NCBI GenBank assembly: GCA_017412605.1 | Contig: JAFPWY010000012.1 | Location: forward strand, 62,001 to 126,000 | Direction of reading: 5' to 3' | DNA: 64,000 bases | Source: Fibrobacter sp. | GTDB lineage: Bacteria > Fibrobacterota > Fibrobacteria > Fibrobacterales > Fibrobacteraceae | Shown here: piece by piece, positions 2,443 to 56,830 of the stretch | Numbering within the stretch: the first letter of the stretch is position 1 | Layout of the letters: every line of letters starts with the position of its first letter | The notes under the pieces: model-generated | Seen by the model: only the letters and a program-made list of their open reading frames with translations | Told to the model about the DNA's origin: nothing | Databases searched by the model: none | Translations under genes and position numbers: made by a program

Positions 2443-2461
2443 CGACGATAATATTATTCAG

Positions 2462-3046: not shown

Positions 3047-3049
3047 GGC

Positions 3050-3724: not shown

Positions 3725-3741
3725 GAGTGCCCCCCTTTTTT

Positions 3742-6183: not shown

Positions 6184-6194
6184 TGTTTTCCCCG

Positions 6195-6608: not shown

Positions 6609-6620
6609 AGAATTCAGGGG

Positions 6621-7622: not shown

Positions 7623-7764
7623 ATTTTCTCCTGTATCGCAAGATAATTTGGTTTGAGCCTTTCTTTTAATATATATAATAAGTTGCGATGATTATAAGCG
7701 TTTTTTCCGTATTAAAGGCACGAGGTGTTGATTTTGTTAGCCACTCCGTTTCATATGATACGTG

Positions 7765-8805
7765 CTATTGTTCCGGCCTAGAGGGACATTCCGTGGTAGG
7801 AACACATCCGCCGCTGTTTCGCGGGTTCCCGAACTCGTCCAAGACAACCTTGTCGATGCAGACCGAAGACGGAGTGCAGTTTGCGGCGTAGGATTCCGTT
7901 GGCTGCGGCGCCGTACTCTCGACCCCTTCGGGCAAGGGGAGTCGGCTTTCCGATACGCCCACGATGGGCTCGCGCAGGTACTTTTTCCCGTCGTCGCATT
8001 CGATGATGTCGAATGAAGTTCCCGCTGCGTTCTTGGCGGTATCGTTGTAGCACAGGACCGCTTCGGTTGATTTTTTGATGTCGAGGCAGTTGTCGATTTG
8101 TTCATCGATTTTCTTTTTTATTCTTTCGCGGTCTTTATCGCATTGTTCAGATTTCTGGACGGCTTCTTCTGGGGCTATTTTACTTTGTTCTGCATATATT
8201 TGGAGCGACTGAGAATAATAAGTGGATCCGTCGCTGCATTTGACGTCAAGAGTAATCTCGGAGGGAGGGCCATAGAGCATTACCGGCTTCTGTATGGTGT
8301 CCAGTATGCTTTTTAGGCATTCCTTTGATTCTTCGGAAATGGTATCGGCGGGACCAGAATCAGGAGATAGAAATTCCTGGATTCTGGAATGTGCAGATTG
8401 TTCCGCCAACTGTTCCGCACTCATACCAAATGACGGATTGCACCCGTTTCGGTTCGGCTCGCAGGAATCCGGAACGACTTCCGCTTGGTCCCTTATGTTG
8501 ATGATCTTCGATATATTCAAGTTGCCTGACGATGAAGATTTTTCCTTGAAAACGACTTCCGTAGGTAATGTTTCTTCTGCCGAAGAAGATGTTTTTTCCG
8601 CCGCAGAGGAACTCTGCGCCGAGTCGGTTTCTGTCGCTGAAGAGCTTTCTTCCGCTGTAGATGAACTCTCTATGCTGCTGGAACTGATTGACGAACCTTC
8701 CGCATCGTTCCTCGGGGAACTGATGTCGCTATCGTTGCTGCAATTGGCCCAGAACAGTGCCGTCGAAACAAGGAAGAGATTTCTTAAATGTTTGTGGATA
8801 TTCAT
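7765..8805 (-). CDS. HKHLR-subfamily Ser-rich lipoprotein
   Basis: 346-aa predicted lipoprotein. Signal MNIHKHLRNLFLVSTALFWANC (Cys22), then a Ser/Ala/Glu linker (35-95). Modules: VVPDSCEPNRNGCNPSFG; CLKSILDTIQKPVMLYGPPS (YG motif); LDVKCSDGSTYYSQ; charged helix; DNCLDI; CYNDTAKNAAGTSFDIIEC with DDGKKYLREP; ANCTPSSVCIDK; GGCVPTTECPS. The module order is the same as in 3742-4932 without the second Ser tail. It starts 49 nt after the 8855-9739 stop. Confidence 0.82.
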   Translation of the reverse strand: MNIHKHLRNLFLVSTALFWANCSNDSDISSPRNDAEGSSISSSSIESSSTAEESSSATETDSAQSSSAAEKTSSSAEETLPTEVVFKEKSSSSGNLNISKIINIRDQAEVVPDSCEPNRNGCNPSFGMSAEQLAEQSAHSRIQEFLSPDSGPADTISEESKECLKSILDTIQKPVMLYGPPSEITLDVKCSDGSTYYSQSLQIYAEQSKIAPEEAVQKSEQCDKDRERIKKKIDEQIDNCLDIKKSTEAVLCYNDTAKNAAGTSFDIIECDDGKKYLREPIVGVSESRLPLPEGVESTAPQPTESYAANCTPSSVCIDKVVLDEFGNPRNSGGCVPTTECPSRPEQ

Positions 8806-8854
8806 AAAAACACCTTTTCTTGTAATGTGCCGTTTTCCCTTGTTTTACATCATG

Positions 8855-9739
8855 TTACTTTAACGGTCTTTGCCATTCTTCTCCATTATCACACGTTATC
8901 TTTTCAACGTCTTCTCCAGAATCGTCCTTGGCGTTTTTCCCGTAGCATGTGGAAATTCCCAGATTTACTTCTTTGTAGGGCCTCTTTTCGATATCGCATT
9001 CCTCTTTGGAATTGTCGGCTATATTGCTAGTGCAATGATATTCAAAAGGTTCTGTTTCTGTTTGAAGGCAACTGTCGATTTGCTGCTTTATTTTTTGTAG
9101 CCTATCTTTGACGTCCCTATCGTATTGTTCGGATACCTGGAATGCTTCTTCCTCGGTAATCTTTTGTTGCTTTGCGTAATTTTTGACAAGCTGCGAGAAA
9201 TAAGTGGATCCGTCGCTGCATTTGACATTTAGTACAGCATACGGGGATGTTCCATACAAAAGTGCAAAATGTGATATTGTGTCTAATACGCTTTTTAGGC
9301 ATACCTTGGTTTCTTGAGCGGCAGAATCGGCAAAAGCAGAACTGTCCGAGAGAATCTCTTCAATTCTTGATTGCCCAATACCGTTCGCGAAATCTTTTAT
9401 GAAATATTCATCCCCTGGGGTTATTCCGTATTGATTCGGTTCGCAGGAATCCGGTAAAAATTCAGAATAATTGATTGACGTGTACTTACGTAGTTCTTCC
9501 GAAGAAGAACTTTGCTTGGTGCTTGTCTTTGAAGAGGAACTTTCCGTATAGTTTTCCTCTGATGAGGCTTGTTCTGAACTGTTTCCCACAGAGGAAGAAC
9601 TCTCTATGCTGTCCTGGCTGCTCGATTGCCCTTCTGCAGTTGTTGCTGGGGAACTGACATCGCTGTCGCTGCTGCAATTGGCCCAGAACAGGGCCGTCGA
9701 AACAAGGAAGAGATTCCTTAAATGCTTGTGAATATTCAT
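8855..9739 (-). CDS. HKHLR-subfamily Ser-rich lipoprotein downstream of rSAM-2
   Basis: 294-aa predicted lipoprotein. ATG 9739 gives the family signal MNIHKHLRNLFLVSTALFWANC (Cys22) after a GGGGTG Shine-Dalgarno. Ser-rich linker; DSCEPNQYGITPGD, where a YG motif replaces the NG/FG of the two closest paralogues; CLKSVLDTISHFALLYGTSP; LNVKCSDGSTYFSQ; a charged helix; and a shortened, variant KYLR module at the end (CYGKNAKDDSGEDVEKITC then DNGEEWQRPLK). The downstream Cys-pair module of its paralogues is absent. Confidence 0.82.
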   Translation of the reverse strand: MNIHKHLRNLFLVSTALFWANCSSDSDVSSPATTAEGQSSSQDSIESSSSVGNSSEQASSEENYTESSSSKTSTKQSSSSEELRKYTSINYSEFLPDSCEPNQYGITPGDEYFIKDFANGIGQSRIEEILSDSSAFADSAAQETKVCLKSVLDTISHFALLYGTSPYAVLNVKCSDGSTYFSQLVKNYAKQQKITEEEAFQVSEQYDRDVKDRLQKIKQQIDSCLQTETEPFEYHCTSNIADNSKEECDIEKRPYKEVNLGISTCYGKNAKDDSGEDVEKITCDNGEEWQRPLK

Positions 9740-9870
9740 AATAACACCCCTTTTCTTGCAATATACTTTTTTTTTCCGCATTTTACGCGCAATTGCAAAT
9801 ACCGTATTTTTTCGTGATTGAAGGCATGTTCTTTTGAATAAAGAAACGAAGTCCGAACCCGAACTTCGTT

Positions 9871-9916
9871 TCTCATTGCTCATTGCTCACCGCTCATAGC
9901 TCATAGCTCACCGCTA
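9871..9916. repeat. GCTCAYN heptamer array abutting the rSAM-2 stop codon
   Basis: Seven-nucleotide units on the plus strand: TCTCATT GCTCATT GCTCACC GCTCATA GCTCATA GCTCACC GCTA. The array ends at the base before the stop codon (9917). The same unit fills the gap at 55304-55338. Confidence 0.7.
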
Positions 9917-10993
9917 TTACGCTCCCGCATCTTCGAGACGTTGAACGTGGCAGTAGGCCAGTTCCTTTGTTTTCTCGTCGCGCAGGTGCAGGCTCGAGCC
10001 TTCGCAGTAACGCCAGTACTTGCACTTCTTGCAGTCGCCAATCTTGGCCCAGCGGCGGTCGCGCATCACCTGGTAACGTTTCTGCCATACTTCCCAGAGG
10101 TCGTCCTTGTAGATGTTGCCTTGGATGTAGTCACCGCGCAGGCTCGGGCAAGCCGAGATGCTGCCGTCGCAAAGCACGGAAGAAACGTTCACGCCGGCAC
10201 GGCAGAAGAACGGGTAGTTGCGCGCGTCCTTCTCGTAGCTGCCGAGGAAGCCTTCGCAACCGTAGTTCACGCTGATGACGTTCAGCTTCTTGACTTCGCG
10301 GATGAAGTCGAACACCTGACGGAATTCCTGGTTTGTCATCTGGAACAGCGGATTGTCCTTGGCACGGCCCTTCGGGAACACGGTCGCGATACGCCAGCGC
10401 TTCACGCCGATTTTCAGGAGCATGTCGAGAATCTTCGGGAGTTCCTTGAGGTTCTGGCGGTTCACGCAGGTCATCACGTCGTAGGTAAGCCCCGGCGTGT
10501 GCGCCGCCATATCGATGGCACGTAGCGCTCGCTCAAAGCTATGCGGGTCGCCGCGGAAATGGTTGTGGCTATCTTGCAAGCCGTCGAGGCTGATAGTGAT
10601 TGAGCGGAGCCCCGCGTTCAAAAGCTTCACGAAACGTTCGGGCGTCATGGCGAGTCCGTTGGTCACCATGCCCCAGGGGTAGCCGCGCTTCTTGATTTCT
10701 TGGCCGCATTCCTCGAGGTCGGGGCGCATAAGCGGTTCGCCGCCGGTAATCACCACGATAAAGTGCTTGGGATCGATGTGCGGCGCGAGCTTGTCGAGCA
10801 CGTTCATGAAATCTTCACGTGGCATGTCAGGGATAGCGTCCTTGACGCAGTCGCTACCGCAATGCAGGCAGTGCAGGTTGCAGCGTAGCGTGCATTCCCA
10901 GAAAAAGTAGGTGAGGGGGTGAGCCTTGATTTCGTTGTGACGGTAAAGGCGGTAAGCTTCGAGAGCGAGTCGTTTTTTAAGAGAGAGTTTCAT
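9917..10993 (-). CDS. Radical SAM/SPASM enzyme, rSAM/lipoprotein system type (copy 2)
   Basis: 358-aa paralogue of the 5107-6183 enzyme, identical at most positions by eye. CNLHCLHC is the SAM-cluster motif, with Cys34 and Cys49 also kept. The C-terminal SPASM-like Cys pattern is conserved: FFCRAGVN, LCDGSISACPSLRGD, GDCKKCKYWRYC and AYCHV. Differences concentrate in the middle of the protein and around NVISVNYGCEGFLG (copy 1: KVIDISADCEGFLG). The 74-nt upstream gap has a heptamer-like CTAGG array where a Shine-Dalgarno would be expected, and none is obvious. It follows eight HWKK-type lipoprotein genes and precedes HKHLR lipoproteins. Likely modifies one or more cluster lipoproteins before export (inference). 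Confidence 0.9.
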   Translation of the reverse strand: MKLSLKKRLALEAYRLYRHNEIKAHPLTYFFWECTLRCNLHCLHCGSDCVKDAIPDMPREDFMNVLDKLAPHIDPKHFIVVITGGEPLMRPDLEECGQEIKKRGYPWGMVTNGLAMTPERFVKLLNAGLRSITISLDGLQDSHNHFRGDPHSFERALRAIDMAAHTPGLTYDVMTCVNRQNLKELPKILDMLLKIGVKRWRIATVFPKGRAKDNPLFQMTNQEFRQVFDFIREVKKLNVISVNYGCEGFLGSYEKDARNYPFFCRAGVNVSSVLCDGSISACPSLRGDYIQGNIYKDDLWEVWQKRYQVMRDRRWAKIGDCKKCKYWRYCEGSSLHLRDEKTKELAYCHVQRLEDAGA

Positions 10994-10997
10994 AGGC

Positions 10998-11025
10998 TTT
11001 TAGGATCTAGGGGCTAGAGGTTAAA
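10998..11025. repeat. CTAGG-type heptamer array in the rSAM-2 leader
   Basis: Units TTTTAGG ATCTAGG GGCTAGA GGTTAAA immediately upstream of the rSAM-2 ATG on the minus strand. They are weaker than the other arrays but have the same 7-nt period. Confidence 0.4.
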
Positions 11026-11067
11026 GTGAAAAAAAAGCAAATTCAATCTTTAATATAATATCTAAAT

Positions 11068-11670
11068 TCAATTTTTGTCCTCGTTGATGCGGTATCTTGT
11101 ATTAAACTCGATTTGGTCATAAATTTTTCCGTCGCTACAGGTGTATTTCTTTTGTGTAGAAGATAATAAACTGTAATCTACGCAACCATTTTCATTGCAT
11201 TCAGAAGGGGGATTGTGTTCTGAATCGACCTGTGCCGTTGCTTCGGTACAGGTTTTTGAATCGCATTTATATTGTTTGCATGATATGGCGTAAATCTTGT
11301 TTGTGTATTCTGAGCTTTTGCTGCTAAACAGGGAGTCGAAATCGCAGGTGGCTGCGGTGTCGGTCAGGTTGCATGGTGTTTGTGGCGCGTAAACCGCGGA
11401 AAAACTGCTGTAGGAGAGTGCCTCGCTGCTGGAACTGTAAGCTTCAATGCGGCTGGAACTGCTTAATTCCTCTATGCTGCTCGAACTGGATTCGACAAAG
11501 CTTGAACTGGATTCTGCAAGACTTGAACTGGATTCATGCGGGACTTCGACTCCGTATTCGCATGATGCACAGTCCCCCGATGGCTCTGTCGAATTTGAAT
11601 CGCCCCCACAGCTGGCCCAGAAAATTCCGGTCAGTGCGAGTGCAATCTTTTTCCAATGTTTGTAGAACAT
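11068..11670 (-). CDS. HWKK-subfamily Ser-rich lipoprotein
   Basis: 200-aa predicted lipoprotein. Signal MFYKHWKKIALALTGIFWASC (Cys21). One YG motif early (DCASCEYGVEVP), a Ser-rich linker (50-90), then Cys-rich C-terminal half: CNLTDTAATC, YAISCKQYKC, CTEATAQ, CNENGCVDYSLL, and the end module YTCSDGKIYDQIEFNTRYR. The last resembles the CDNG-YNEAEF endings of 14392, 15133 and 16094. Here the fixed CPxYGV that precedes that module in those paralogues is replaced by CVDYSLL, so Gly is lost. Fifteen nt from the upstream gene. Confidence 0.82.
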   Translation of the reverse strand: MFYKHWKKIALALTGIFWASCGGDSNSTEPSGDCASCEYGVEVPHESSSSLAESSSSFVESSSSSIEELSSSSRIEAYSSSSEALSYSSFSAVYAPQTPCNLTDTAATCDFDSLFSSKSSEYTNKIYAISCKQYKCDSKTCTEATAQVDSEHNPPSECNENGCVDYSLLSSTQKKYTCSDGKIYDQIEFNTRYRINEDKN

Positions 11671-11685
11671 AGATATGGTTATTGT

Positions 11686-12051
11686 CTAGTGGGTGTCTTC
11701 TTTTTCGTAATATCTTGACTCGATTTCGTCTTGGGGGATAGGGTTGCCTTGAGCATCGTAGCAGCTCATAACCGTTTCGTTTTCTTGTTTGTAGCAAGAA
11801 GCTCCATCTTCACATTTGTAATAATCGGTACATGGATCACGAGGGGTGAATGTGCATTTTTCATCTATGTCTGGAGAATTAAAATCTTCCGGGTTCTCGC
11901 AAAAATAGGCGTTGACTCCATATTCAGGGCAACCACCTCCCTCAAAGGAACAAGCGGTTTTCTCATCGCTGGATGACGAATCGTCACCACAACCGAACCA
12001 GAACAGGGAGGCTATTGCAAGAACAATTTTTTTCCAATGTTTGTAAATCAT
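11686..12051 (-). CDS. Short HWKK-subfamily Cys-rich lipoprotein
   Basis: 121-aa predicted lipoprotein. ATG 12051 is preferred over one three codons earlier because it gives the constant 21-residue signal MIYKHWKKIVLAIASLFWFGC. YG motif GGCPEYGVNAYFC, then PRDPCTDYYKCEDGASCYKQE and a terminal segment PIPQDEIESRYYEK that echoes the YNEAEF module. There is no long Ser linker, only DDSSSSDE. Gaps of 15-50 nt to neighbours indicate co-transcription. Confidence 0.78.
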   Translation of the reverse strand: MIYKHWKKIVLAIASLFWFGCGDDSSSSDEKTACSFEGGGCPEYGVNAYFCENPEDFNSPDIDEKCTFTPRDPCTDYYKCEDGASCYKQENETVMSCYDAQGNPIPQDEIESRYYEKEDTH

Positions 12052-12085
12052 AATCGTCAACTGTGTGAAAATTTCAAAGTTTAAT

Positions 12086-12120
12086 GCTCATGGCTCGTAG
12101 CTTACGGCTCGTTGCTTGCC
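12086..12120. repeat. Heptamer array overlapping the 3' end of 12102-12878
   Basis: Units GCTCATG GCTCGTA GCTTACG GCTCGTT GCTTGCC run through the stop codon and encode the last residues (AASNEP) of the lipoprotein. Confidence 0.55.
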
Positions 12121-12878
12121 GCCGATTCCCGGCATTGCTTGAGCTGTTCTTCAAGTTCCTTGAACCTGTCCTCGATGATCTTATTGATTTCCTCGTCCAG
12201 GGCGGGCTTGTTCGCTTCCCATTCTTCCATCATTTTCTGGTATTTCTTGTATCCTTCCGTAAGCTGTTTGGTGCCGTCGCTGCAAACCTCTTCTACGGTA
12301 ACTGCTACAGGGGCACCGTACAGGGCGACAAAGTTCTCAAGCGAGTCTTTCATTTTCTTGAGGCATCGGGGGAAGTTACTCCAGTTGATGCTGTCAAGAG
12401 GCGCCTCGGCCCGTTCTGCTTTTGGTCGCGGGTCGACAATGCTGTCGATGAGTTCTACTATTTCGATATCCGCCTGCTGTTTCGCATTCATTTTTAAAAT
12501 GTCAGCCGAATAAGCCGGCGGGTAATAGCTGACAACGGAATCGCCGGGCTGGCAAGTCTTTTCCGTTACGGACACACCGTAAAGTGTATCTGACGGCATG
12601 CCATTCGGATCAATGCTTGAACTGGAAGATGCTGCGTCAGAACTGGAACCAACCACGTCGGAACTGGAACCAACCATGTCGGAACTGGACTGCGCGACCT
12701 CGTTAGAACTGGATTCTGCAGCGCTGCTGGATGCGGGTACTTCCGAGCTGGACGAAGGCACGGCTCCGTCGGAATTGGACGTGGGAGCACTATAATTAAC
12801 AGATGTAGAGTCGTCGCAACTGGCCCAGAAGAGGGCGACCGTGGTGAGCAAAACTTTTTTCAAGTATTTGTTTAGCAT
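12102..12878 (-). CDS. Ser-rich lipoprotein, hybrid of the two subfamilies
   Basis: 258-aa predicted lipoprotein. Signal MLNKYLKKVLLTTVALFWASC (Cys21). The Ser-rich linker at 30-90 contains short tandem units (SSDVVGSSSDVVG type). First YG motif DTLYGVSVTEKTC; second, in the HKHLR-type module, CLKKMKDSLENFVALYGAPV followed by EEVCSDGTKQLTE. Ends in a charged helix (KYQKMMEEWEANKPALDEEI) and LKQCRES. It combines an HWKK-like signal with an HKHLR-type body, pointing to module exchange. Its 3' end lies in a heptamer array. Confidence 0.82.
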   Translation of the reverse strand: MLNKYLKKVLLTTVALFWASCDDSTSVNYSAPTSNSDGAVPSSSSEVPASSSAAESSSNEVAQSSSDMVGSSSDVVGSSSDAASSSSSIDPNGMPSDTLYGVSVTEKTCQPGDSVVSYYPPAYSADILKMNAKQQADIEIVELIDSIVDPRPKAERAEAPLDSINWSNFPRCLKKMKDSLENFVALYGAPVAVTVEEVCSDGTKQLTEGYKKYQKMMEEWEANKPALDEEINKIIEDRFKELEEQLKQCRESAASNEP

Positions 12879-12907
12879 AATGGTATCCGATTGGAATAAA
12901 GAGGTTG

Positions 12908-13555
12908 TTAAGTTTGAGGCTTTTCAGGACATTCGATGGATGGGTAGCATCCGCCGACGGGCTGTTCGTTTCCGTTGTCATCTATGGTAAATCCGTCGAT
13001 GCAAATATCCGGTTCTCTAGTGCAGTTTTGGGCATAAAAGGAACCTAGCGTTGGAATAGGTGGAACGGGATTAACTCCTTCGGGCAATTCCTTTTGTTTT
13101 TCGGGTAGGTCCATGTATAGGTCTTGGAATCTCAGGTATTTTTGTCCGTCGTCGCATTCAACGATGTCGAATGCCTTGCCCGAATCGTTTACGGCAGTGT
13201 CGTTGTAACAATATACTGCAATCCCGCCATATGCCGGTACGGGAACTTCGAAACTGGAACTGGACTGCGCAACTTCGCTAGAACTGGACTCTGCAATGTT
13301 GCTGGAACTAGATTCCTTGATGTTGCTGGAACTGCTTAAGTCGAGTGGAGGAGGGCATTCTATCGCTCCGCAACCATATGTCGGCACAGGAACTTCGTAG
13401 CTTGAGCTAGATTCTACAAAGCTTGAACTTGTTTCTACAAAACTGGAACTGGACTGCTCGCCATTTGCTCCGCTGCTTGTCGAGGTGTCGTCGCAACTCG
13501 CCCAGAAAAGTGCGGTCATCGTAAGAGCGATTTTTTTCCAGTGTTTGTATAACAT
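12908..13555 (-). CDS. HWKK-subfamily lipoprotein with two YG motifs
   Basis: 215-aa predicted lipoprotein; ATG 13555 gives MLYKHWKKIALTMTALFWASC (Cys21). Ser-rich linkers alternate with VPTYGCGAIECPPP and VPAYGGIAVYC. Then come the KYLR module (NDSGKAFDIVECDDGQKYLR) and the terminal Cys module (NCTREPDICIDGFTIDDNG, GGCYPSIECPEKP). The terminal module is shared with 13581-14342, 7765-8805, 6195-6608 and, more weakly, 3742-4932. Confidence 0.82.
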   Translation of the reverse strand: MLYKHWKKIALTMTALFWASCDDTSTSSGANGEQSSSSFVETSSSFVESSSSYEVPVPTYGCGAIECPPPLDLSSSSNIKESSSSNIAESSSSEVAQSSSSFEVPVPAYGGIAVYCYNDTAVNDSGKAFDIVECDDGQKYLRFQDLYMDLPEKQKELPEGVNPVPPIPTLGSFYAQNCTREPDICIDGFTIDDNGNEQPVGGCYPSIECPEKPQT

Positions 13556-13580
13556 AGAACTTCTCAATTATGCGTGGTGG

Positions 13581-14342
13581 CTAATTTGGTTTTTCGGGAC
13601 AGTCGATGATGGGGTGGCAGCCGGCAAGCGAATCTTGCTCGACTGGAATATCGGGGTTTCGTTCGATGCAGATATCCGATTCGCTTGTGCAGTTTTTTGC
13701 TCCGAGGGAACCTGGCCTGGGTGCAAAGACTTGGACTCCGTCCGGAAGGGGCGTGTCCTTGGTTGCATCATAGGGATTTCTTAGGTATTTTTTCTTGGTC
13801 GACTCGAGGATGCCATCGCCCGACTTTTGCCCACATTCGATAATCTCGAATTCAACCCCTTCCGCATTATTTTCGGTAGTGTTGAAACAGTTGTATGTAA
13901 TTCCGTACAACGTGGAACTCATGCGGAGTTCGCTGCTGGAACTGGTGGAGGGAACTCCGTACGCCGGCACACTCATGCGGATTACACTGCTGGAACTTTC
14001 GGCAGAGGAACTGCTTTTGGGCCTGATGCTGGAACTGGTGGAGGGAACTCCGTACGCCGGCACACTCATGCGGATTACACTGCTGGAACTTTCGGCAGAG
14101 GAACTGCTTTTGGGCCTGATGCTGGAACTGGTGGAGGGAACTCCGTACAACGGCATAGAACTCATGCGGAGTTCACTGCTTGAAGTCCCGACGATGGAAC
14201 TGTCGGTTCCGGGATTGCTGCTGGAACTGTATTCAGGTGATGGGGCACCTTCGGTTCCCGCTACGGATATTGAATCTCCGCAACTGCTCCAAAAAAATGC
14301 AGTCAGCGCGACAGCAAATTTTTCAAAGTGCTTGTAAAACAT
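13581..14342 (-). CDS. HWKK-subfamily lipoprotein with tandem YG-motif repeats
   Basis: 253-aa predicted lipoprotein. ATG 14342 follows a strong AGGAGG Shine-Dalgarno and gives MFYKHFEKFAVALTAFFWSSC (Cys21). Residues 50-150 contain a 31-residue unit (PAYGVPSTSSSIRPKSSSS, then AESSSSVIRMSV), two copies identical at DNA level, flanked by partial copies carrying MPLYGVPST and STLYGITYNC. Four YG motifs in all. The C-terminal half has a variant KYLR module (FEIIECGQKSGDG, KKKYLRNP) and the terminal Cys module (NCTSESDICIERN, GCHPIIDCPEKP). Confidence 0.85.
   Translation of the reverse strand: MFYKHFEKFAVALTAFFWSSCGDSISVAGTEGAPSPEYSSSSNPGTDSSIVGTSSSELRMSSMPLYGVPSTSSSIRPKSSSSAESSSSVIRMSVPAYGVPSTSSSIRPKSSSSAESSSSVIRMSVPAYGVPSTSSSSELRMSSTLYGITYNCFNTTENNAEGVEFEIIECGQKSGDGILESTKKKYLRNPYDATKDTPLPDGVQVFAPRPGSLGAKNCTSESDICIERNPDIPVEQDSLAGCHPIIDCPEKPN
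13938..14130. repeat. 93-bp tandem repeat, two identical copies
   Basis: Inside the 13581-14342 gene the stretch beginning GGAACTGGTGGAGGGAACTC recurs 93 bp later without a difference seen by eye, followed by a partial third copy. It encodes one YG motif plus its Ser linker per unit, so copy number sets the number of YG motifs in frame. Confidence 0.85.
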
Positions 14343-14391
14343 GTACTTCCTCCTGTATCCCAAACCACCTGTAGATATTTTACAGGGGTTC

Positions 14392-15114
14392 TTAGTTGTC
14401 CTGTTTATTCACAGGTGCATCGTAGTACATCTGGAATTCGGCTTCGTTGTAAATTTGGCCGTTGTCGCACTTGTATTGCTTTTCGGATATCTTGACCACT
14501 CCGTACTTGGGGCAAACGTCACCATTGCAAGGCTCTGACTGGATAGATTCGTTAGTTTCTTCCTCGCAGGTTACGCCATCATCGCATTTGAATACCGTGT
14601 TTCCGTTGTCGCCTTGGGTTGCCTCGCAGGCCGCTCTATTCGAAACTCCGTATTTGGCGATGATTTCGCCGAGGGAATCAGATTCTATGGGGGCTATTAC
14701 GCCGTATTTGGCCGCAATCACGCCGTACAGGGCGACCATTGAGTCGGCGGTAAACGGGCCGCAGATGTCCGAGGGGCATCCGTACAGGTCGACGGGCTCG
14801 TCCAGGGGATTGCTGCTGCTGCGCGGATTCTCTGCACTTGCGCTGCTTTCGGTGTTGCCAGCTTCGCTGCCAGGATTCGAAGCGTTGCTGGATGCGCTTT
14901 CTGCACTGGACGTGGCACTTGTGGCTTCTGCTTCGCCGGATGATGCTGCCTCGTTTCCGGTGTTTGTGTTGGAACCGGACGAGGTTCCTTCGGTTACGGT
15001 GCTGGAGGGAGTCTCGTTTTCAACCGAGACCGGGCTAGAAGAGGTGTCGTCGCAGCTAGCCCAGAAGAATCCGGTCAAGGCGAGAACAATTTTTTTCCAA
15101 TGTTTGTAAAGCAT
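14392..15114 (-). CDS. HWKK-subfamily lipoprotein with five YG motifs
   Basis: 240-aa predicted lipoprotein. Signal MLYKHWKKIVLALTGFFWASC (Cys21). Ser/Ala/Thr-rich linker (25-105), then VDLYGCPSDICGP, VALYGVIAAKYGVIAP, IAKYGVSNRAAC, a C-D-D-G module (FKCDDGVTCEEE), CNGDVCPKYGVVKI and YKCDNGQIYNEAEF near the end. The spacing between YG motifs here is shorter than a Ser linker, unlike 15133-16077. Nineteen nt from the upstream paralogue, to which it is clearly the closest relative. Confidence 0.83.
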   Translation of the reverse strand: MLYKHWKKIVLALTGFFWASCDDTSSSPVSVENETPSSTVTEGTSSGSNTNTGNEAASSGEAEATSATSSAESASSNASNPGSEAGNTESSASAENPRSSSNPLDEPVDLYGCPSDICGPFTADSMVALYGVIAAKYGVIAPIESDSLGEIIAKYGVSNRAACEATQGDNGNTVFKCDDGVTCEEETNESIQSEPCNGDVCPKYGVVKISEKQYKCDNGQIYNEAEFQMYYDAPVNKQDN

Positions 15115-15132
15115 TTTCTCCTCCTTTCTTTT

Positions 15133-16077
15133 TTAGTTTTCTTTGTCACATGTCCCGTTGAATACGCAGGGAGGACCATACAGAGCGATGGGCACTTGGA
15201 TGGAATCCTTGATGACAATATCCTCGATTACGGGCAGCGTGTCGTAGAGCATCTGGAACTCAGCTTCGTTGTAAGTCTGTCCGTTATCGCATGTGTACGT
15301 TTTCTTGGAAATCTTGACCACTCCATATTTGGGGCAAACGTCTCCGTTGCACGCAGGTGCTTGCATCTCGGTCTTTGTTTCTTCTACGCAGGTCACCCCG
15401 TCTTCGCATGTGTAGACGACTTTATCGTCCTTGGCGTTGGCAACGGTGCAGGTCGTCTTGCTCGGTACTCCGTACTTCGCGATAATCTGGGTGAGCGAAC
15501 TGGAACTTTCGGGGCGTATTACACCGTATTTTGCTGCAATCTGGGAGAAGGAACTGGAACTCTCGGGGCGTATGACGCCGTACTTGGCGGCAATGATGGA
15601 AATGGTGTCGGAGATGGAGGCTGTGTCGGTGATGATCGGACCGCAGATGTCCGAGGGGCATCCGTACAGGTCGACGGGCTCGTCCAGGGCGCTGCTGCTG
15701 GAACGGTGGTGCTTTTTGGAACTGGAACTGCTCTTGGTCGTGCTGGTGGTGTCGGTGCCAGGATTTGGGGTGTCTTCGGCACTGGAGGCTTCGGCGCTGG
15801 AAACCTCGCTTGCTTCTTCAGCGCTGGATGCTGCGCTCTTGGCCTTGGAGCTGGAGGATTTTCCTGATTCCTCCGCGCTGGATGCGGCACTTGTAGCTTC
15901 GGCACTGGATGTAGCACTCTTGGCCTTGGAACTGGATGTCGCTCCTTCGGTCTCGGAGATAGTACTGGACGGGGTATCCTCGTTAACCGTAACGGGGCCG
16001 GATGCCGTTTCGTCGCAGCTTGCCCAGAAGAATCCTGTCAGGGCGAGTACAATCTTTTTCCAGTGCTTGTATAGCAT
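15133..16077 (-). CDS. HWKK-subfamily lipoprotein with six YG motifs
   Basis: 314-aa predicted lipoprotein. Signal MLYKHWKKIVLALTGFFWASC, identical to that of 14392-15114, while the mature parts differ. Long Ser/Ala/Lys linker (30-135), then VDLYGCPSDICGP, AAKYGVIRPESSSS twice in tandem, IAKYGVPSKTTC, CEDGVTCVEE, CNGDVCPKYGVVKI, YTCDNGQTYNEAEF and a final IALYGPPCVFNGTC. Six YG motifs is the maximum in the cluster. The tandem AKYGVIRP units are separated by a Ser run plus a short variable stretch. Confidence 0.83.
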   Translation of the reverse strand: MLYKHWKKIVLALTGFFWASCDETASGPVTVNEDTPSSTISETEGATSSSKAKSATSSAEATSAASSAEESGKSSSSKAKSAASSAEEASEVSSAEASSAEDTPNPGTDTTSTTKSSSSSKKHHRSSSSALDEPVDLYGCPSDICGPIITDTASISDTISIIAAKYGVIRPESSSSFSQIAAKYGVIRPESSSSLTQIIAKYGVPSKTTCTVANAKDDKVVYTCEDGVTCVEETKTEMQAPACNGDVCPKYGVVKISKKTYTCDNGQTYNEAEFQMLYDTLPVIEDIVIKDSIQVPIALYGPPCVFNGTCDKEN

Positions 16078-16093
16078 TTCTTGTTCCTTTTGT

Positions 16094-16774
16094 TTAGTTC
16101 TCGTTGGGTTGGATTACTCCATAGAGAGCGATTGTTGAATCTTGAGGATTGTCTCTGATGTGCAACTTGAATATTGCTTTATAGCGAGACAGGAATTCGG
16201 CTTCGCTGTAGACTTTGCCATCATCGCAGGAAAAGTTTAGTTCGGGGTAGGCGGTAACGCCATAATCGGGACACATTTCTACGAGACCATCTTCCGTTTC
16301 CATTGTGCTGCAGGGGAGACTTCCCCAACGAAGCGTCTCTGTTGCGACGCAGGTCAGGCCGTCCTCGCATTTGTATGTCGTGGTGCTGTCGGACTCAGGA
16401 GTCGGACTGGCGGTTGAATCTTCAGTGCAGGTGATTTTTTCGATTGTTACCCCATATAAGGGTTGAACGCTTATTTCAAAATCACTGCTGGAACTCGATT
16501 CAGACTTGTTTGCGCTGGAAATGCCGGATTCTGGGCTGGAACTGCTTATTCCGGTGCTAGAACTTTCGGTTTCGGTGCTAGAACTAGAATTGGCAAGATT
16601 TTCGCTTGAACTGCTGGCTGCGGTTTCGGAACTGCCTGCAGTGAAGGTTTCTGAGCTGGAACTTCCCGGTTCTTGAGAGACGGTTATAGCCGAGGCGGAT
16701 GTGGATTCTTCGCAGCTAGCCCAAAAAAGGGCTGTTAGTGCCAGCGCCGCCTTTTTCCAGTGCTTGTAAATCAT
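16094..16774 (-). CDS. First lipoprotein of the cluster, HWKK subfamily
   Basis: 226-aa predicted lipoprotein. ATG 16774 gives MIYKHWKKAALALTALFWASC (Cys21); an earlier in-frame ATG would spoil the signal peptide. Ser-rich linker (35-105), then VQPLYGVTIEKITC, YKCEDGLTCVATE, MCPDYGVTAYPELNFSC, DDGKVYSEAEFLSRYK and a C-terminal TIALYGVIQPNEN. It is the promoter-proximal gene of the minus-strand operon. Confidence 0.82.
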   Translation of the reverse strand: MIYKHWKKAALALTALFWASCEESTSASAITVSQEPGSSSSETFTAGSSETAASSSSENLANSSSSTETESSSTGISSSSPESGISSANKSESSSSSDFEISVQPLYGVTIEKITCTEDSTASPTPESDSTTTYKCEDGLTCVATETLRWGSLPCSTMETEDGLVEMCPDYGVTAYPELNFSCDDGKVYSEAEFLSRYKAIFKLHIRDNPQDSTIALYGVIQPNEN

Positions 16775-16808
16775 TTTGAGAAACCTACGCTTTCTCTCTC
16801 TCTTTTGT

Positions 16809-16816
16809 GAAAAATA
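16809..16816 (-). promoter_or_regulatory. Candidate promoter element of the lipoprotein operon
   Basis: Minus strand reads TATTTTTC (TAnnTTT type), 34 nt before the first lipoprotein start, in an AT-rich 225-nt gap shared with the divergent CE15 gene. On the plus strand the same gap has TATAAT at 16962-16967, a plausible -10 for the CE15 gene. Confidence 0.4.
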
Positions 16817-16999
16817 CATTTCTATTTGCAAAAAAGGATAGATAATTTGTTTTTTATGACCGAAATCATGCTTTTTTGCATGTTTTGCCCGCTTTGCTTA
16901 TGACAAAATGCAATGGAAAAAAACGTAAACGGGGCGTTTTCTTGGAAATCGATTGATATATTATAATCAACATTTAAAAATCCTAATAAGGGGTTGGTT

Positions 17000-51778: not shown

Positions 51779-51922
51779 GGGGTGATGCACCCGCTATATG
51801 ATACAAACTCGGTTTTTTTGCTTTTTTCTCGTGCAAAGTGTCACGGGCTGTTGCTTGTTTTGCCTTTTTTTGACTGATTTTACGTGATTTAACTTATATT
51901 ACAGGGTGTAAGGAGAATGACT

Positions 51923-52651
51923 ATGGACATCCGCAAAGGCAAGGTCGAGAAAAATCGCGTGTGGTCAGCAAATACCCAAAAGGTACTGGCCTCATTTTTG
52001 GGGGTTTCTGCGATTTCGATGCTTGCCGCGTGTGTCCCATCCGATGCGGTAGCGGGGGCCGATGCAGAAGTGACTCCGCCTACCACATCGGATCCAGCTC
52101 AAATGATGTCGGGGGATGTTGCTTATCCGGAGTCTTCCTCGTCCATTTCATCTTCTTCGGAATCTCGGCCTCAATCTTCGTCAAGCAGTATCAATGTTCC
52201 GCCCCTCACGGCCGGGATTGTGGCGCCTGAATCGTCCATAAGCAACGAAGTCTCGTCGAGTAGCAGACATGTAGACATTTCCTATCCGATGTCGTCGGGC
52301 GGGGTGATGTACTACACGAGTAGCTCCAGTTCCATGCGGTCGAGTTCGAGCAGTCTCGTGCCTCCGGCTAGTGGCGTTTCTTCGTCATATGATGTTATCA
52401 GTTCGTCTTCGTCCTATAGGGTAGATTCCCTGGAAACCACTGCTGGCGAGATTGTCCCGCCGCTTGAATCATCCAGTTCTTCTTTCAACAACGTGGAACC
52501 TCCGCCGTTGGCTGGCATTCCGGAATTGTCTTCCAGCAGCAGCGAGCCCGAGCCTTTGCCCGGCGACCCGATTGAACTGCCGGAACCTATGTCGGGTGGT
52601 GCCTTTGGTCCGCAACAGTTTTCGGGTGATGTTACTGAGTCGGAAGACTGA
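51923..52651 (+). CDS. Ser-rich lipoprotein coupled to a SPASM radical SAM gene
   Basis: 242 aa from ATG 51923, chosen because AAGGAG lies 7 nt upstream (1 nt for an ATG six bases earlier). A long charged N-terminus (MDIRKGKVEKNRVWSANTQK) precedes the hydrophobic segment and lipobox AISMLAAC. The mature part is Ser runs separating short Gly-containing motifs: MMSGDVAYP, LTAGIVAPES, MSSGGVMYY, TAGEIVPP, LAGIPELS, PMSGGAFGP, FSGDVTES. There is no Cys after the lipobox. The stop TGA shares its A with the ATG of the radical SAM gene. Looks like a multi-site substrate or scaffold for that enzyme (inference). Unlike the 1-17 kb cluster, it has no YG motif. Confidence 0.8.
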   Translation: MDIRKGKVEKNRVWSANTQKVLASFLGVSAISMLAACVPSDAVAGADAEVTPPTTSDPAQMMSGDVAYPESSSSISSSSESRPQSSSSSINVPPLTAGIVAPESSISNEVSSSSRHVDISYPMSSGGVMYYTSSSSSMRSSSSSLVPPASGVSSSYDVISSSSSYRVDSLETTAGEIVPPLESSSSSFNNVEPPPLAGIPELSSSSSEPEPLPGDPIELPEPMSGGAFGPQQFSGDVTESED

Positions 52652-53796
52652 TGAATCTCGTCCTTTCCCTCACGGAACGGTGTAATCTTCGTTGCACCTA
52701 TTGTTATTACAAGGTGAGCCACGAGGCCCGCAGTCTTGTGATGTCGGATGAAATCATGGAGGCGGCCATTAGGCTCGCTTTTGAACGGACTTTGTTTCTT
52801 GGGCAGCGCTTTTTGAACATCACGTTTTTTGGCGGGGAACCGCTCCTTTGCATGGAATCCATTCGCAGAGGTGTCGAATTCGCGAAGGAAATTGTTCACG
52901 AGCGTTTTGGAGACGGATTTGAGGTTGGAGCACCTACTTCGGCACCGATTTCACCTAAATTCCGGCTTCGTTTTGCGGTGAACACGAACGGCACCTTGCT
53001 GGACGATTCTATCATCGATTTCATGAAGCGTGAAAAATTCCGCATTTACCTTTCGCTCGACGGCCCGGAGGCGCATCACGACATTTGCCGCAAGCAGGTG
53101 GGTGGCGCGGGCTCCTTCAAGCTTATTGAACCGCACATTCCCGCGTTATGCAAACTCGATACGGTTGTACTTTCGGTCGTGACGCGCGAGAACATGCGCT
53201 CGCTTTCGGATGCGGTGCGCTGGATACAGGCTCAGGGTTTAAGGAACATGACCGCCGCCGTGGATTTTGACGGCAAGTGGACCGGCGAGGAATTCGATGT
53301 CCTGGCTAGCGAATACGAAAAGCTGGCCGCGTTTTGGCTTGAAATCAAGCGAAAGAAAATTCCGTTCTATTTGGGGACAATTCAGGACAAGCTAAAGTTC
53401 CGTCTGACGGGACAACGCCATCGTACATCGACATGCCATGTGGCGGAAGGCATTGTCGCCTGCGCCACGAACGGCAACCTTTTCCCGTGTACACGCTTTA
53501 TTTCCTCGAAAAAGGACGCTCCCTACATCATGGGCAACGTCTACGACGAACCGGCGAAGATCTTTGGTGGGGAAGTCGCCCGCGATATTCTGGATTTCTT
53601 TGACCGCGAGAAGGAAGGCTGCGAAGGCTGTGCCATCCGCTTCCGCTGCCATGCACACGAATGTGCATGCACCTCGTTCTACTCTACCGGCTCGATACAC
53701 GGCGTTTCTCCCGAGGTATGCACGCACGAACGCATGCTCGCCGCGATTTGCGACGACGCCATTGCGGAATTTACGGATATTTCAGAAAAAAATTAA
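52651..53796 (+). CDS. Radical SAM/SPASM peptide maturase
   Basis: 381 aa. C11-NLR-C15-TY-C18 binds the catalytic Fe-S cluster; TFFGGEPLL and AVNTNGTLL and YLSLDGPEAHHD complete the SAM domain. The SPASM region (about 265-360) has TCHVAEGIVACATNGNLFPC, then GCEGCAIRFRCHAHECAC and VCTHE, the Cys spacing of sactipeptide/thioether and other RiPP maturases. It resembles the family annotated 'FibroRumin system radical SAM peptide maturase' (recalled, not searched). Translationally coupled to the Ser-rich lipoprotein upstream; a 19-aa peptide gene converges from downstream. Confidence 0.9.
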   Translation: MNLVLSLTERCNLRCTYCYYKVSHEARSLVMSDEIMEAAIRLAFERTLFLGQRFLNITFFGGEPLLCMESIRRGVEFAKEIVHERFGDGFEVGAPTSAPISPKFRLRFAVNTNGTLLDDSIIDFMKREKFRIYLSLDGPEAHHDICRKQVGGAGSFKLIEPHIPALCKLDTVVLSVVTRENMRSLSDAVRWIQAQGLRNMTAAVDFDGKWTGEEFDVLASEYEKLAAFWLEIKRKKIPFYLGTIQDKLKFRLTGQRHRTSTCHVAEGIVACATNGNLFPCTRFISSKKDAPYIMGNVYDEPAKIFGGEVARDILDFFDREKEGCEGCAIRFRCHAHECACTSFYSTGSIHGVSPEVCTHERMLAAICDDAIAEFTDISEKN

Positions 53797-53827
53797 GGCC
53801 CTCGCAGAGACTCCAACGGGACCTTAA
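53786..53827 (-). terminator. Intrinsic terminator of the 19-aa peptide gene
   Basis: Minus strand: TTAAGGTCCC, 16-nt loop, GGGCCTTAA, then TTTTTTT. It overlaps the last codons of the radical SAM gene and lacks a T run in the plus direction. Confidence 0.75.
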
Positions 53828-53860
53828 TAGAATATTGAAAGATAACCCAAATCCACGTTT

Positions 53861-53920
53861 TTATGGCTTGAACGGAGGGATGTAGTCATCATCTTCTTTT
53901 TTGTTTTCTGTCTTTGCCAT
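53861..53920 (-). CDS. 19-residue acidic peptide, candidate RiPP precursor
   Basis: ATG 53920 to TAA 53861 encodes MAKTENKKEDDDYIPPFKP. AAGGAG lies 5 nt upstream, CTATATTTTT 27 nt upstream, and a strong terminator 34 nt past the stop, so this is a complete small transcription unit. A Lys/Glu/Asp-rich leader-like half is followed by Tyr-Ile-Pro-Pro-Phe-Lys-Pro. No Cys, so a thioether to Cys is impossible; Tyr/Lys/Phe cross-links or C-terminal ligation remain possible. Neighbours are a SPASM enzyme and an ATP-grasp/GCS2 ligase pair. It could instead be an unrelated small protein. Confidence 0.6.
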   Translation of the reverse strand: MAKTENKKEDDDYIPPFKP

Positions 53921-54015: not shown

Positions 54016-54047
54016 GCCCAATTGGGCAAAAAATGCCTAATTTAGGC
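54016..54047 (-). terminator. Hairpins at the 3' end of the GCS2-like gene
   Basis: Minus strand GCCTAAATTAGGC followed by ATTTTTT, overlapping the final codons, then the 12-nt palindrome GCCCAATTGGGC. Confidence 0.6.
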
Positions 54048-55302
54048 CATATAGGCGGTTATGGGCGAGGCATTCGGCAAGTTTACCGTATTCGCGGACG
54101 AAGTCTTCGCGGGACGGAGTGTCGCCTAGCGCACAGTACAGGGCCGATGAAAGCGTTCCTCTGGCAAGCATTTTTTCCATGGTGCTTTCGGAAACCTCGG
54201 TTAGGTCGCCTTTCACGATGTCGAAAACGTGTTTCCAGAGTTCGCCGGCGGTGCATTTGCCACTCATGCCGAAGACGGCCAAGAATTCGGGCCAGTCGAT
54301 GACGGTGTTTTCTGCATCGCGGGAAGTCTGCGTCAGCATTTCCGAGAGCCTTGCCGTGTCGAAATCCCTAAGCATTTCGCGGTAGGATTTTGCGGTGACG
54401 GGAGCGCTTCCTGCGGTGGGCTTGAACAGGCGTCCGTTCGCAATAGCCTTGAGCGTCGCAACTTCAAGTTCCACGATGGCAATGTCCGCGTTCGGGCATT
54501 CCTGGATATCGACGAGTCGGATTTCGATGGCCCCGCGGTCAAAGCGCGCAATGGCGCCACGGCTGTTCAAGAAGAAATGGTTCAGCAGGTGCTCGGGATC
54601 GTAGGGCGCAATGGCCTTCTTGACCTTGTCGAAGATTTGCGTATTGTACTCGTCGTAGGTGTACGCCTTTTCGGGAATCACTAGCCCAGCGATTTCGGGA
54701 ACCTTGTCCTGGTTGTGGCGGTAGACCTCGATTCGCGCGTCCTTGAAACCCGTGTATTTGCTGTCGAGGTAGGGGCTGCTTGCCGCGATGGCGGGGATGA
54801 GCGGCAAGAGCAGGCGGATGGCGGCATGGAGCTCGCCGAATTCGTTGTCGCCGTCAAAAGAGAGGTTCAGGTGCGTGCTCTGCAGGTTTGCCCAGCCGTG
54901 GCCCTTGCAGTTGAAAATGCGGTCATAAGTCTGGTAGATGTCGTTGCAGTCGTAAGGCCAGAGCTGCATTTCTGCCGGGTCCATGAAGGGGTGCGCGGCA
55001 CTGGGCAACAGCATGGCGCCAATTTTCTCGAGCTTCTTGTTCGCACGGCGGATTTCGTGGAAGAACCGCTTGCCGAGCCCGTCGAAAGTGGACTTGGGGT
55101 GCGCGCACTTGAATTCGAGCACGTGGCTCACGAGTTCGTTCGAAAGACCGATATCGTCGTATTCCACGTCGGAAAGTTGGTTGCCGTCCTTATCCTTGCC
55201 GAGCGGGATGTCGGCGCGGGGCAGCACCTGCAGCGTTTCGCGGTCCACGATCATGAATTCCATTTCGACGCCGAAGCGTTCCCAGATTTTATAATTACTC
55301 AT
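54037..55302 (-). CDS. Glutamate--cysteine ligase-like (GCS2-type) amidoligase
   Basis: 421 aa. RFGVEMEFMIVD and LVSHVLEFKCAHP correspond to the metal/glutamate-binding strands of the carboxylate-amine ligase fold; HGWANLQSTHLNLSFDGDNE is the conserved His-rich motif; RFDRGAIEIRLVDIQECPNAD completes the core. The family activates a carboxylate with ATP and couples it to an amine. Lies 37 nt downstream of the ATP-grasp gene, the gap being a heptamer array, so the pair is one operon. Specificity cannot be read; not necessarily glutathione synthesis. Ends RLYGLN. Confidence 0.85.
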   Translation of the reverse strand: MSNYKIWERFGVEMEFMIVDRETLQVLPRADIPLGKDKDGNQLSDVEYDDIGLSNELVSHVLEFKCAHPKSTFDGLGKRFFHEIRRANKKLEKIGAMLLPSAAHPFMDPAEMQLWPYDCNDIYQTYDRIFNCKGHGWANLQSTHLNLSFDGDNEFGELHAAIRLLLPLIPAIAASSPYLDSKYTGFKDARIEVYRHNQDKVPEIAGLVIPEKAYTYDEYNTQIFDKVKKAIAPYDPEHLLNHFFLNSRGAIARFDRGAIEIRLVDIQECPNADIAIVELEVATLKAIANGRLFKPTAGSAPVTAKSYREMLRDFDTARLSEMLTQTSRDAENTVIDWPEFLAVFGMSGKCTAGELWKHVFDIVKGDLTEVSESTMEKMLARGTLSSALYCALGDTPSREDFVREYGKLAECLAHNRLYGLN

Positions 55303-55303
55303 A

Positions 55304-55338
55304 GCTCATTGCTCACTGCTCACAGCTCTCAGCTCGCA
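55304..55338. repeat. GCTCAYN heptamer array filling an operon gap
   Basis: Five units: GCTCATT GCTCACT GCTCACA GCTCTCA GCTCGCA. The array fills the whole gap between the ATP-grasp stop (55340) and the GCS2-like start (55302). Confidence 0.75.
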
Positions 55339-55339
55339 G

Positions 55340-56830
55340 CTAATCCTCATGCTGATGTATCTTGTGTTGTGCGGCGTGCATGCGCTCCTCGATGCGGTGG
55401 CGCAGGCTCCTCATAATGGTAAGGTAGATTTTCTTTTTGCCTACGAGGTCCTCGATGCCGTGGTCGATACTCGGGTTGTCGTTCACTTCGATCACGACCG
55501 GGTGCCCGTGGATTTCCTTGAGGTCCACGCCGTAGAGCCCGTTGCCGATAAGGCTTGCCACGCGGAGCGCCGTCTTCACGATGCCGTGGGGTACGCTCTC
55601 GATGGGCAGGCAGTCCCACTTGCCGCAAGTGCCCTGCTTGTTTTTGCTATCCCAGTTATAGATTTGCCAGTGGTTCTTGGCCATGTAGTACTTGCAGGCG
55701 TAAAGCGGCTTGCCGTCGAGGATGCCGATTCGCCAGTCAAAGTCGGTGGGCGTGAATTCCTGCGCGATGAGCAAGTCGCTGTGCTCGAACATCGTGTCGA
55801 GAATCTGCTCGAGTTCTTCCTTGTCGTTCGCCTTCTTGACGCCGAGGCTGAAACTTGAATCGGGCGTCTTGATGACCATGGGGAAGCCGAGTTCCTTCGC
55901 AAGCGTGTGGCGGTTTTCGCTGTGCACGATAATCGTCTTGGGTGCGGGAATCTTGCCCACGGTCATGAGTTCTTGCAGATAAACTTTGTTGGAGCAGCGC
56001 AGGATGCTGTCGGGGTCGTCGATGACTGCGATGCCTTCGCTCTGGGCGCGGCGCGCGAACGCGTAGGTGTGGTGGTTCACGTTCGTCGTCTCGCGGATGA
56101 ATATGGCGTCGAATTCGCCTACGCGGTGGTAGTCCTTCTTGGTGATGAGCTCCACGCGGAATCCCGTATCTTGCGCAGCCTCGATGAAGTTATGGATGGC
56201 CTGCTTGTTGCTCGGCGGTTCCACTTCGTCGGGGTTTACGAGGATGCCGAGGTCGTACACGTAGTCTTCGCTCTTGGCGGAGGTGTAGCGCGTCTTCTCG
56301 AAGTACTCGATGGCGAACTGGTCCACCATCTCCTTGTGCGTCTCGGGAATTTCGTCGACGCTGATGGGGCGGATGCTCTGGATGAACCACTTTTGCTTGA
56401 ATACGAACTTGGCGCGGAGCAGCGGGGCCTGGAAAATGCGGTAGAGTTCCTGCGATAGCTCCAGGTATTGGGCGCTTACGTTCTGGCCGAAGTAGATGGA
56501 GAGCACGAATTCGGTGCCGGTCAGCTTGTGCAGGCTCTTCTGGATGAGATCGTCGATGTCGTCGCTGATGATTTTTACGACGGCAGGGGCCTTGAAGTCG
56601 CGGATGTTCTTGACGTTCGGGATGACCTTGTGGCCGCGCGCCTCGGCAAGCAGGCTCACGTAGTAGCCCTTGCTCTGGTAGCTGTAGTCGCGGCACAGGT
56701 TGAAAACGCGCACGCTCCTTTGCGTGGTGAATTCCGGATTGGTGAGGTAGTCTTTTGCCGATACGATTTCGGCTTCGGGAATGTGGAATTTCCAGTGTTT
56801 TGGATTGTTTACGACAATTATTTTTTTCAT
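55340..56830 (-). CDS. RimK-like ATP-grasp ligase with RLAN N-terminal domain
   Basis: 496 aa. N-terminal domain (about 1-190) matches the RimK-like ATP-grasp N-terminal type (IIVVNNPKHWKFHIPEAEIV). The ATP-grasp domain follows (about 270-480): IFIRETTNVNHHTYAFARRA, KELGFPMVIKTPDSSFSLGV, LIAQEFTPTDFDWRIGILDG, GLYGVDLKEIHGHPVVIEVNDNPS (metal-binding Glu/Asn). Such enzymes ligate amino acids through acyl-phosphates. Upstream is a short GC-rich leader without an evident Shine-Dalgarno. Comparative surveys of amidoligases have noted RimK-like/GCS2 pairs in predicted peptide-synthesis operons (recalled). Confidence 0.87.
   Translation of the reverse strand: MKKIIVVNNPKHWKFHIPEAEIVSAKDYLTNPEFTTQRSVRVFNLCRDYSYQSKGYYVSLLAEARGHKVIPNVKNIRDFKAPAVVKIISDDIDDLIQKSLHKLTGTEFVLSIYFGQNVSAQYLELSQELYRIFQAPLLRAKFVFKQKWFIQSIRPISVDEIPETHKEMVDQFAIEYFEKTRYTSAKSEDYVYDLGILVNPDEVEPPSNKQAIHNFIEAAQDTGFRVELITKKDYHRVGEFDAIFIRETTNVNHHTYAFARRAQSEGIAVIDDPDSILRCSNKVYLQELMTVGKIPAPKTIIVHSENRHTLAKELGFPMVIKTPDSSFSLGVKKANDKEELEQILDTMFEHSDLLIAQEFTPTDFDWRIGILDGKPLYACKYYMAKNHWQIYNWDSKNKQGTCGKWDCLPIESVPHGIVKTALRVASLIGNGLYGVDLKEIHGHPVVIEVNDNPSIDHGIEDLVGKKKIYLTIMRSLRHRIEERMHAAQHKIHQHED

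Follow-up and report, generated by a model that had tools for sequence, protein, structure and literature searches.

Organization of the locus

The window, i.e. the whole stretch of DNA analyzed (64,000 nucleotides of a Fibrobacter sp. contig), includes a Ser-rich lipoprotein gene, a radical SAM/SPASM maturase gene and a 19-codon gene, arranged as follows:

51910–51915, plus strand: ribosome-binding site AAGGAG of the lipoprotein gene (from the sequence)
51923–52651, plus strand: Ser-rich lipoprotein, 242 aa, proposed substrate (from the sequence and orthologous loci)
52031–52033, plus strand: codon of the lipobox Cys37, predicted lipidation site (from the pattern)
52106–52120, plus strand: motif copy MSGDV, residue 62
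52208–52222, plus strand: motif copy TAGIV, residue 96
52439–52453, plus strand: motif copy TAGEI, residue 173
52508–52522, plus strand: motif copy LAGIP, residue 196
52556–52570, plus strand: motif copy LPGDP, residue 212
52651–53796, plus strand: radical SAM/SPASM maturase, 381 aa, its start overlapping the lipoprotein stop by one base
52681–52704, plus strand: radical SAM cluster motif CNLRCTYC (residues 11–18, with C11, C15 and C18)
53434–53721, plus strand: SPASM auxiliary-cluster cysteines C262–C357
53861–53920, minus strand: 19-aa gene MAKTENKKEDDDYIPPFKP, 19 codons, convergent to the maturase and judged to be outside the system

The lipoprotein reading frame starts at 51923, with an alternative start at 51917. 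The final A of its stop codon TGA (52649–52651) is shared with the ATG of the maturase, and the TGATG coupling of the two genes described in the earlier note was thus confirmed as a one-base overlap. Also the 19-codon gene reported just beyond the maturase, without mention of its strand, is present and conserved, and lies on the minus strand. As the lipoprotein, the maturase and the 19-aa gene are all conserved in related genomes, they are not chance ORFs.

The lipoprotein begins with a Lys-rich n-region, MDIRKGKVEKNRVWSANTQK, followed by a hydrophobic signal core and the lipobox LAAC, the signal peptide and the lipobox being assigned by pattern. The protein contains 26% Ser, and its mature part consists of short Gly/Pro motifs strung between Ser runs, with no Cys in the sequence beyond the lipobox Cys37. 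A second clear copy of the N-terminal 45 amino acids was not found elsewhere in the genome, and in Pfam the lipoproteins and Lys-rich partners (see below) that were tested matched no family above the gathering scores.

Sequence, fold and family of the maturase

The maturase has, in addition to the CX3CX2C motif, a complete set of SPASM cysteines (C262, C280, C324, C327, C333, C338/C340 and C357). C11, C15 and C18 together with eight cysteines of the SPASM region were kept in at least 98% of 108 related sequences, and both Pfam PF04055 (Radical_SAM) and PF13186 (SPASM) matched the protein above the gathering score. Its assignment to the broad, peptide-modifying class of radical SAM/SPASM maturases, made earlier from the Cys layout, therefore holds.

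None of the 25 best NCBIfam matches of the maturase passed its cut-off. The best match was PapB NF047865 with 180 bits against a cut-off of 340, and the relatives of the maturase scored 181–230 bits with the same model, all below the cut-off. The next matches, including the nif11, SCIFF and quinohemoprotein families, were likewise all below their cut-offs, and TIGR03942 (anaerobic sulfatase maturases) gave 98.5 bits against 349. TIGR04133 (rSAM_w_lipo, cut-off 425) was absent from the 25 best matches, the weakest of which had 46.5 bits. Membership of the FibroRumin maturase family, named in the earlier note, was rejected: the maturase gave 36.3 bits with TIGR04136, whose cut-off is 400, and the best score in the genome was 59.9. 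Judged from these profile scores, the maturase belongs to none of the NCBIfam families compared. No description of its radical SAM family was found in the open-licence papers searched.

The AlphaFold2 model of the maturase (pLDDT 84.8) had its closest solved fold in CteB (Z 34.6, rmsd 2.9, 338 residues, from CteB residue 94 onward), followed by ChlB (Z 30.4) and anSME (Z 30.3). Since the maturase begins directly at the radical SAM core, an N-terminal RRE domain is absent. The closest named records originate from MAGs of Fibrobacter succinogenes, and the same genome includes three further paralogues with 51–52% identity.

Conservation of the gene pair in Fibrobacteraceae

Members of the maturase family (E ≤ 1e-60) were present in 64 of the 111 genomes of the family, and the phylum-wide search (64/168) added none. 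Altogether 109 non-identical maturase loci were extracted, 108 of which, with near-complete enzymes, were included in the tree. With some lipoproteins labelled by hand where the pattern had missed a visible signal peptide, and with five downstream neighbours (ordinary or spurious-looking genes) left out by hand, a candidate partner adjoins the maturase in all of the 108 loci. In 77 loci this is a lipoprotein directly upstream, ending at or shortly before the maturase start, and in 31 loci a Lys-rich protein of ~70–180 aa downstream, starting 11–38 bases past the maturase stop. On the maturase tree the partner type needs one change, compared with ~27 when the labels are shuffled.

Every A-clade locus has an orthologous lipoprotein directly upstream. 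Orthologous maturases with neither the lipoprotein nor a similar peptide, which the earlier note had named as evidence against its reading, were looked for and not found: all 23 orthologues of the A clade that the tree includes, and all 108 loci, are partnered, with a single switch of partner type. The 31 sister-clade loci (L095, L102 and others) lack a lipoprotein, and their Lys-rich partner often includes GIP, GG or PGDP motifs. The paralogues on contigs C1 and C6 have Lys-rich partners.

On contig C9 of the same genome, four homologous lipoproteins in tandem stand before the paralogue, and an SMVTTFE-like motif, or a variant, forms the C-terminal end of each. This C-terminal motif was present in 40 of the 40 group-B lipoproteins and is the most strictly conserved feature of that paralogue group. 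Arrays of lipoproteins beside one enzyme would fit substrates better than accessory proteins. In L103 (1985–5004), four tandem paralogous lipoproteins precede a single maturase; a segment resembling DIPLSHEPISSSVMEALS and a C-terminal SMVTTFE-like motif are common to them. Unlinked lipoproteins with the same N-region and no adjacent maturase were found in the genomes G039, G071, G086 and G051, some of them with PTAG[IM]P or PLAGNV.

The Gly motif

The motif [LMTI][ASTPG]G[DEIV][VPI], in short form [LMTI]xG[DEIV][VPI], was drawn by eye from group A and then tested on held-out sequences. The mature lipoproteins of group A include 1–7 copies each. In comparisons with shuffled sequences, in which kinship was ignored, the motif was found 11 times in the lipoproteins of other phyla against 0.49 by shuffling, 11 times in those of other Fibrobacteraceae genera against 0.34, and 23 times in the paralogue group B against 1.5, the count being reached in 0 of 2000 shuffles in each case; the signal was weak in the Lys-rich partners (4 against 0.64, 10 of 2000 shuffles).

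When the whole window was scanned (20,175 aa), five of the 12 matches lay inside the 244-aa ORF of the lipoprotein. The Ser-rich lipoproteins of the cluster at 1–17 kb had one match in total, and the motif is therefore not generic to Ser-rich lipoproteins. Column conservation was 0.69 in the motif, 0.44 in the other non-Ser mature positions and 0.68 in the signal peptide region. Within the motif Gly alone is invariant, and it is frequently followed by Asp or Glu. Among the 23 A-clade orthologues, L025 and L027 are paired with a lipoprotein that lacks the motif and has PDGGVIE only.

Relatives in other phyla

The search of genome contigs detected distant maturase relatives with 26–31% identity, the nearest of them in Oscillospiraceae, Saccharofermentans, Ruminococcus, Akkermansia, Planctomycetota, Deltaproteobacteria and Bacteroidetes. 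In most of these nearest relatives the maturase start lies close to the end of a lipoprotein or a comparable secreted protein, and in several Firmicutes and Akkermansia loci two lipoproteins precede the maturase. Many of the partners begin with M-K-I-x-P-x-K....P-x-Y and carry LAGDV, LAGEV, LDGDV or TAGIV. In a tree of 57 sequences the lipoprotein-linked relatives grouped with Fibrobacteraceae and the 20 sequences without such neighbours formed an outer clade, in a branching order that is tentative, given the midpoint rooting and several low inner supports of 0.2–0.3. Outside the lipoprotein clade, the coupled lipoprotein was absent from most relatives with less than ~30% identity.

The partners in L147, L148, L151, L160, L165 and L173 are ~290 aa long and have a long N-region containing PxYP. 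A common segment, HG[DE]G.G..GC....PP.[FY][LI]SE[DE]EA, was seen in L147, L148 and L160, a separate partner type from other phyla.

The 19-codon gene

The 19-aa gene has an AAGGAG-type ribosome-binding site. With a search pattern that fixed the end residues DDYIPP[FY]KP, and which a diverged peptide could escape, the gene was found in a single genus, in 26 of the 111 genomes of Fibrobacteraceae, and nearly always with exactly 19 codons. The N-terminal half of the peptide is variable. The gene is convergent to purB, and its other neighbour varies, being a GCS2-like ligase, an opposed kinase-like gene or unrelated genes. It is convergent to the maturase in ~10 genomes, and adjoins purB also in genomes without a maturase at that site. 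In the complete genomes G020, G055 and G060, which have an orthologous maturase, the peptide pattern found no match, and nothing resembling the peptide was found among the remaining small ORFs that follow these maturases and have a ribosome-binding site. Some member of the maturase family is present in every one of the 26 genomes with the gene, a co-occurrence that may be due to shared lineage.

Since the 19-aa gene stays with purB also where the maturase is absent, it is not part of the lipoprotein/maturase system. Conservation beside orthologous maturases, as looked for on the suggestion of the earlier note, was thus found for the Ser-rich lipoprotein in the A-clade loci and not for the peptide, which follows purB instead.

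In the genome G039 the purB site (L235, contig C33) has a frame-broken lipoprotein remnant near the site of the 19-aa gene, and the maturase is missing there. In the window, a two-gene amidoligase cassette lies at 54037–56830 on the minus strand, consisting of a gene for an RLAN/RimK-like ATP-grasp protein and then one for a GCS2-family ligase; each is present in 78–79 of the 111 genomes of the family, and the two mostly adjoin. The 19-aa gene was rejected as a third gene of this pair, as it lies 128 kb away in G053 and on other contigs in G083 and G086, and a divergent gene stands between them in several genomes.

The cluster at 1–17 kb

This cluster (1710–16831) includes about a dozen lipoproteins and two TIGR04133 rSAM_w_lipo enzymes, with 592 and 624 bits against the cut-off of 425. 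The parallel suggested earlier between it and the present locus is supported, as both pair radical SAM enzymes with lipoproteins. Several of the lipoproteins carry PLYG, AYG or KYG motifs, near the splicease tag PIRPLYGLPI. A spliceotide-like tyramine excision on these lipoproteins, suggested by sequence, is worth testing. Nothing on TIGR04133 or on 'rSAM-associated lipoprotein' was found in the open-licence papers searched.

Interpretation of the locus

The sequence evidence makes it fairly likely that the two genes form a cassette whose product is a modified lipoprotein, with the coupled lipoprotein as the substrate of the SPASM maturase. The enzyme probably modifies the short repeated Gly motifs. 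The earlier note had proposed these repeats, the 19-aa peptide or both as substrates; the partnering of 108 of 108 loci and the enrichment of the motif support the lipoprotein, and the peptide was dropped on account of its link to purB and the lack of pattern matches in G020, G055 and G060.

In the proposed mechanism, translational coupling would place the maturase beside the nascent lipoprotein, and the enzyme, having no RRE domain, would bind the basic N-region of the signal peptide. A Cys-independent radical modification would then take place in the cytoplasm, on the Gly of each [LMT]xG[DEIV][VPI] motif or next to it. Sec would export the modified lipoprotein, Lgt would lipidate the lipobox Cys, and LspA would remove the signal peptide and the leader together, the end product being a membrane-anchored lipoprotein with several modified motifs. 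The most likely chemistry would be a dehydrogenative step (~-2 Da) on the alpha-carbon of the Gly or on the adjacent position, for example an ether or C–C link to a nearby Ser, Thr or Asp; this is a guess, and a doubtful one. Thioether chemistry is unlikely since the mature lipoprotein lacks Cys, and the lack of Tyr and Trp in the motif argues against tyramine splicing and aromatic crosslinks.

Gene coupling by itself is no proof that the lipoprotein is a substrate. It could be a working partner of the maturase, i.e. an anchor, scaffold or electron donor, with the real substrate encoded elsewhere, and it is consistent with this that the lipoproteins of group B and of L025 and L027 do not have one core in common with group A. 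However, the tandem lipoprotein arrays next to single maturases, the replacement of the partner type by Lys-rich proteins in the sister clade and the conservation of short motifs within low-complexity, fast-changing sequence all speak against a partner role, which is on the whole unlikely. That the substrate is instead the 19-aa peptide is scarcely credible: it is encoded by a genuine gene that has its own ribosome-binding site, runs towards the maturase in ~10 genomes and encodes a conserved end, DDYIPP[FY]KP, and a maturase-family member is present in 26 of 26 carrier genomes; but it is linked to purB where no maturase is present, with unrelated genes on the other flank, and no match to the peptide pattern was found in G020, G055 and G060, complete genomes that do contain the orthologous maturase.

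Two alternatives concern the reaction. PapB NF047865 is the top NCBIfam match of the maturase and its relatives (180–230 bits) and Asp or Glu often follows the motif Gly, as might be expected of a PapB-type ranthipeptide maturase making Cys-Asp/Glu thioether links; yet every score is below the 340-bit cut-off, and this chemistry needs a Cys together with Asp or Glu (PMC9413430), while the lipoprotein has no Cys past the lipobox and 14 of the 21 mature group-A lipoproteins have none. Such an enzyme is very unlikely here. There is likewise next to no likelihood of a splicease-like or aromatic-crosslinking enzyme, as proposed for the 1–17 kb cluster: PLAGIP and PLAGDP do share their frame with the splicease tag PIRPLYGLPI (PMC10533398) and with the P-LYG motifs in the 1–17 kb lipoproteins, but tyramine excision requires a Tyr before Gly, which the motif does not have, and TIGR04133 is outside the 25 best NCBIfam matches of the maturase.

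If the lipoprotein is the substrate, the locus could represent a widespread class of SPASM enzymes coupled to lipoproteins, occurring in Fibrobacter, Firmicutes, Akkermansia, Planctomycetota, Deltaproteobacteria and Bacteroidetes. This wider proposal is quite possible, though short of probable. Its members would modify motifs of the LxG[DE]V type without involving Cys, the signal peptide serving as RiPP leader and LspA as leader peptidase, and the Fibrobacter sister clade would have been re-targeted to Lys-rich proteins without a signal peptide. If true, a set of gut and rumen bacteria display chemically altered surface motifs that ordinary proteomics would miss. The similar pairs in several phyla point to a so far uncharacterised alteration of proteins at the cell surface. 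The locus and the related loci offer concrete radical-SAM candidates, in which a short motif, natural arrays and a candidate leader are all available.

Comparison with known systems

The SCIFF maturase CteB makes Cys thioethers. Its structure (5WGG/5WHY) is the top fold for the maturase model (Z 34.6), but the alignment covers CteB from residue 94 only, and the N-terminal part of CteB has no counterpart in the maturase. The structure of ChlB (9GM3, Z 30.4) was determined together with the leader of the ChlB substrate. The TIGR04133 cluster resembles the present locus in having a radical SAM/SPASM enzyme among Ser-rich multi-motif lipoproteins, but the enzyme family is another one and its lipoproteins carry (L/A/K)YG instead of [LMT]xG[DEIV][VPI].

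PapB, which links Cys to Asp or Glu (PMC9413430), is the nearest NCBIfam model, likewise a short rSAM/SPASM enzyme, with several motif copies in each precursor. It differs from the maturase in the score (180 against 340 bits) and in that the candidate lipoprotein substrate has no Cys-Xn-Asp/Glu pairs. The substrates of spliceases have an XYG motif and undergo tyramine excision, with the tag PIRPLYGLPI (PMC10533398); in the comparison with the splicease PlpXY, no YG motif match was found in the lipoprotein. A survey of Bacteroidales RiPPs does not mention lipoproteins.

The recently described DAG-RiPPs (DybA/DybH and NedA/NedBC) are RiPP-lipoprotein hybrids, in which RiPP precursors are processed at a lipobox; their enzymes are MNIO (DUF692) iron enzymes acting on Cys-containing motifs, and the existence of others was predicted by the authors (PMC12636315). 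Also there a precursor with an SPII signal and a lipobox stands beside a modifying enzyme, as does the lipoprotein here with its LAAC, assigned by pattern, and the overlapping maturase gene. Modification in the cytoplasm is followed by lipoprotein processing in the DAG-RiPPs, and the same order of modification and lipidation is proposed for the present pair. The differences are that the coupled enzyme here is a radical SAM/SPASM enzyme and not an MNIO, and that the motif has no Cys. With RiPP-lipoprotein hybrids already described for MNIO enzymes, what would be new here is the pairing with a radical SAM/SPASM enzyme, and the best reading of the locus, by analogy, is a putative radical-SAM counterpart of the DAG-RiPP type of lipoprotein-RiPP hybrid.
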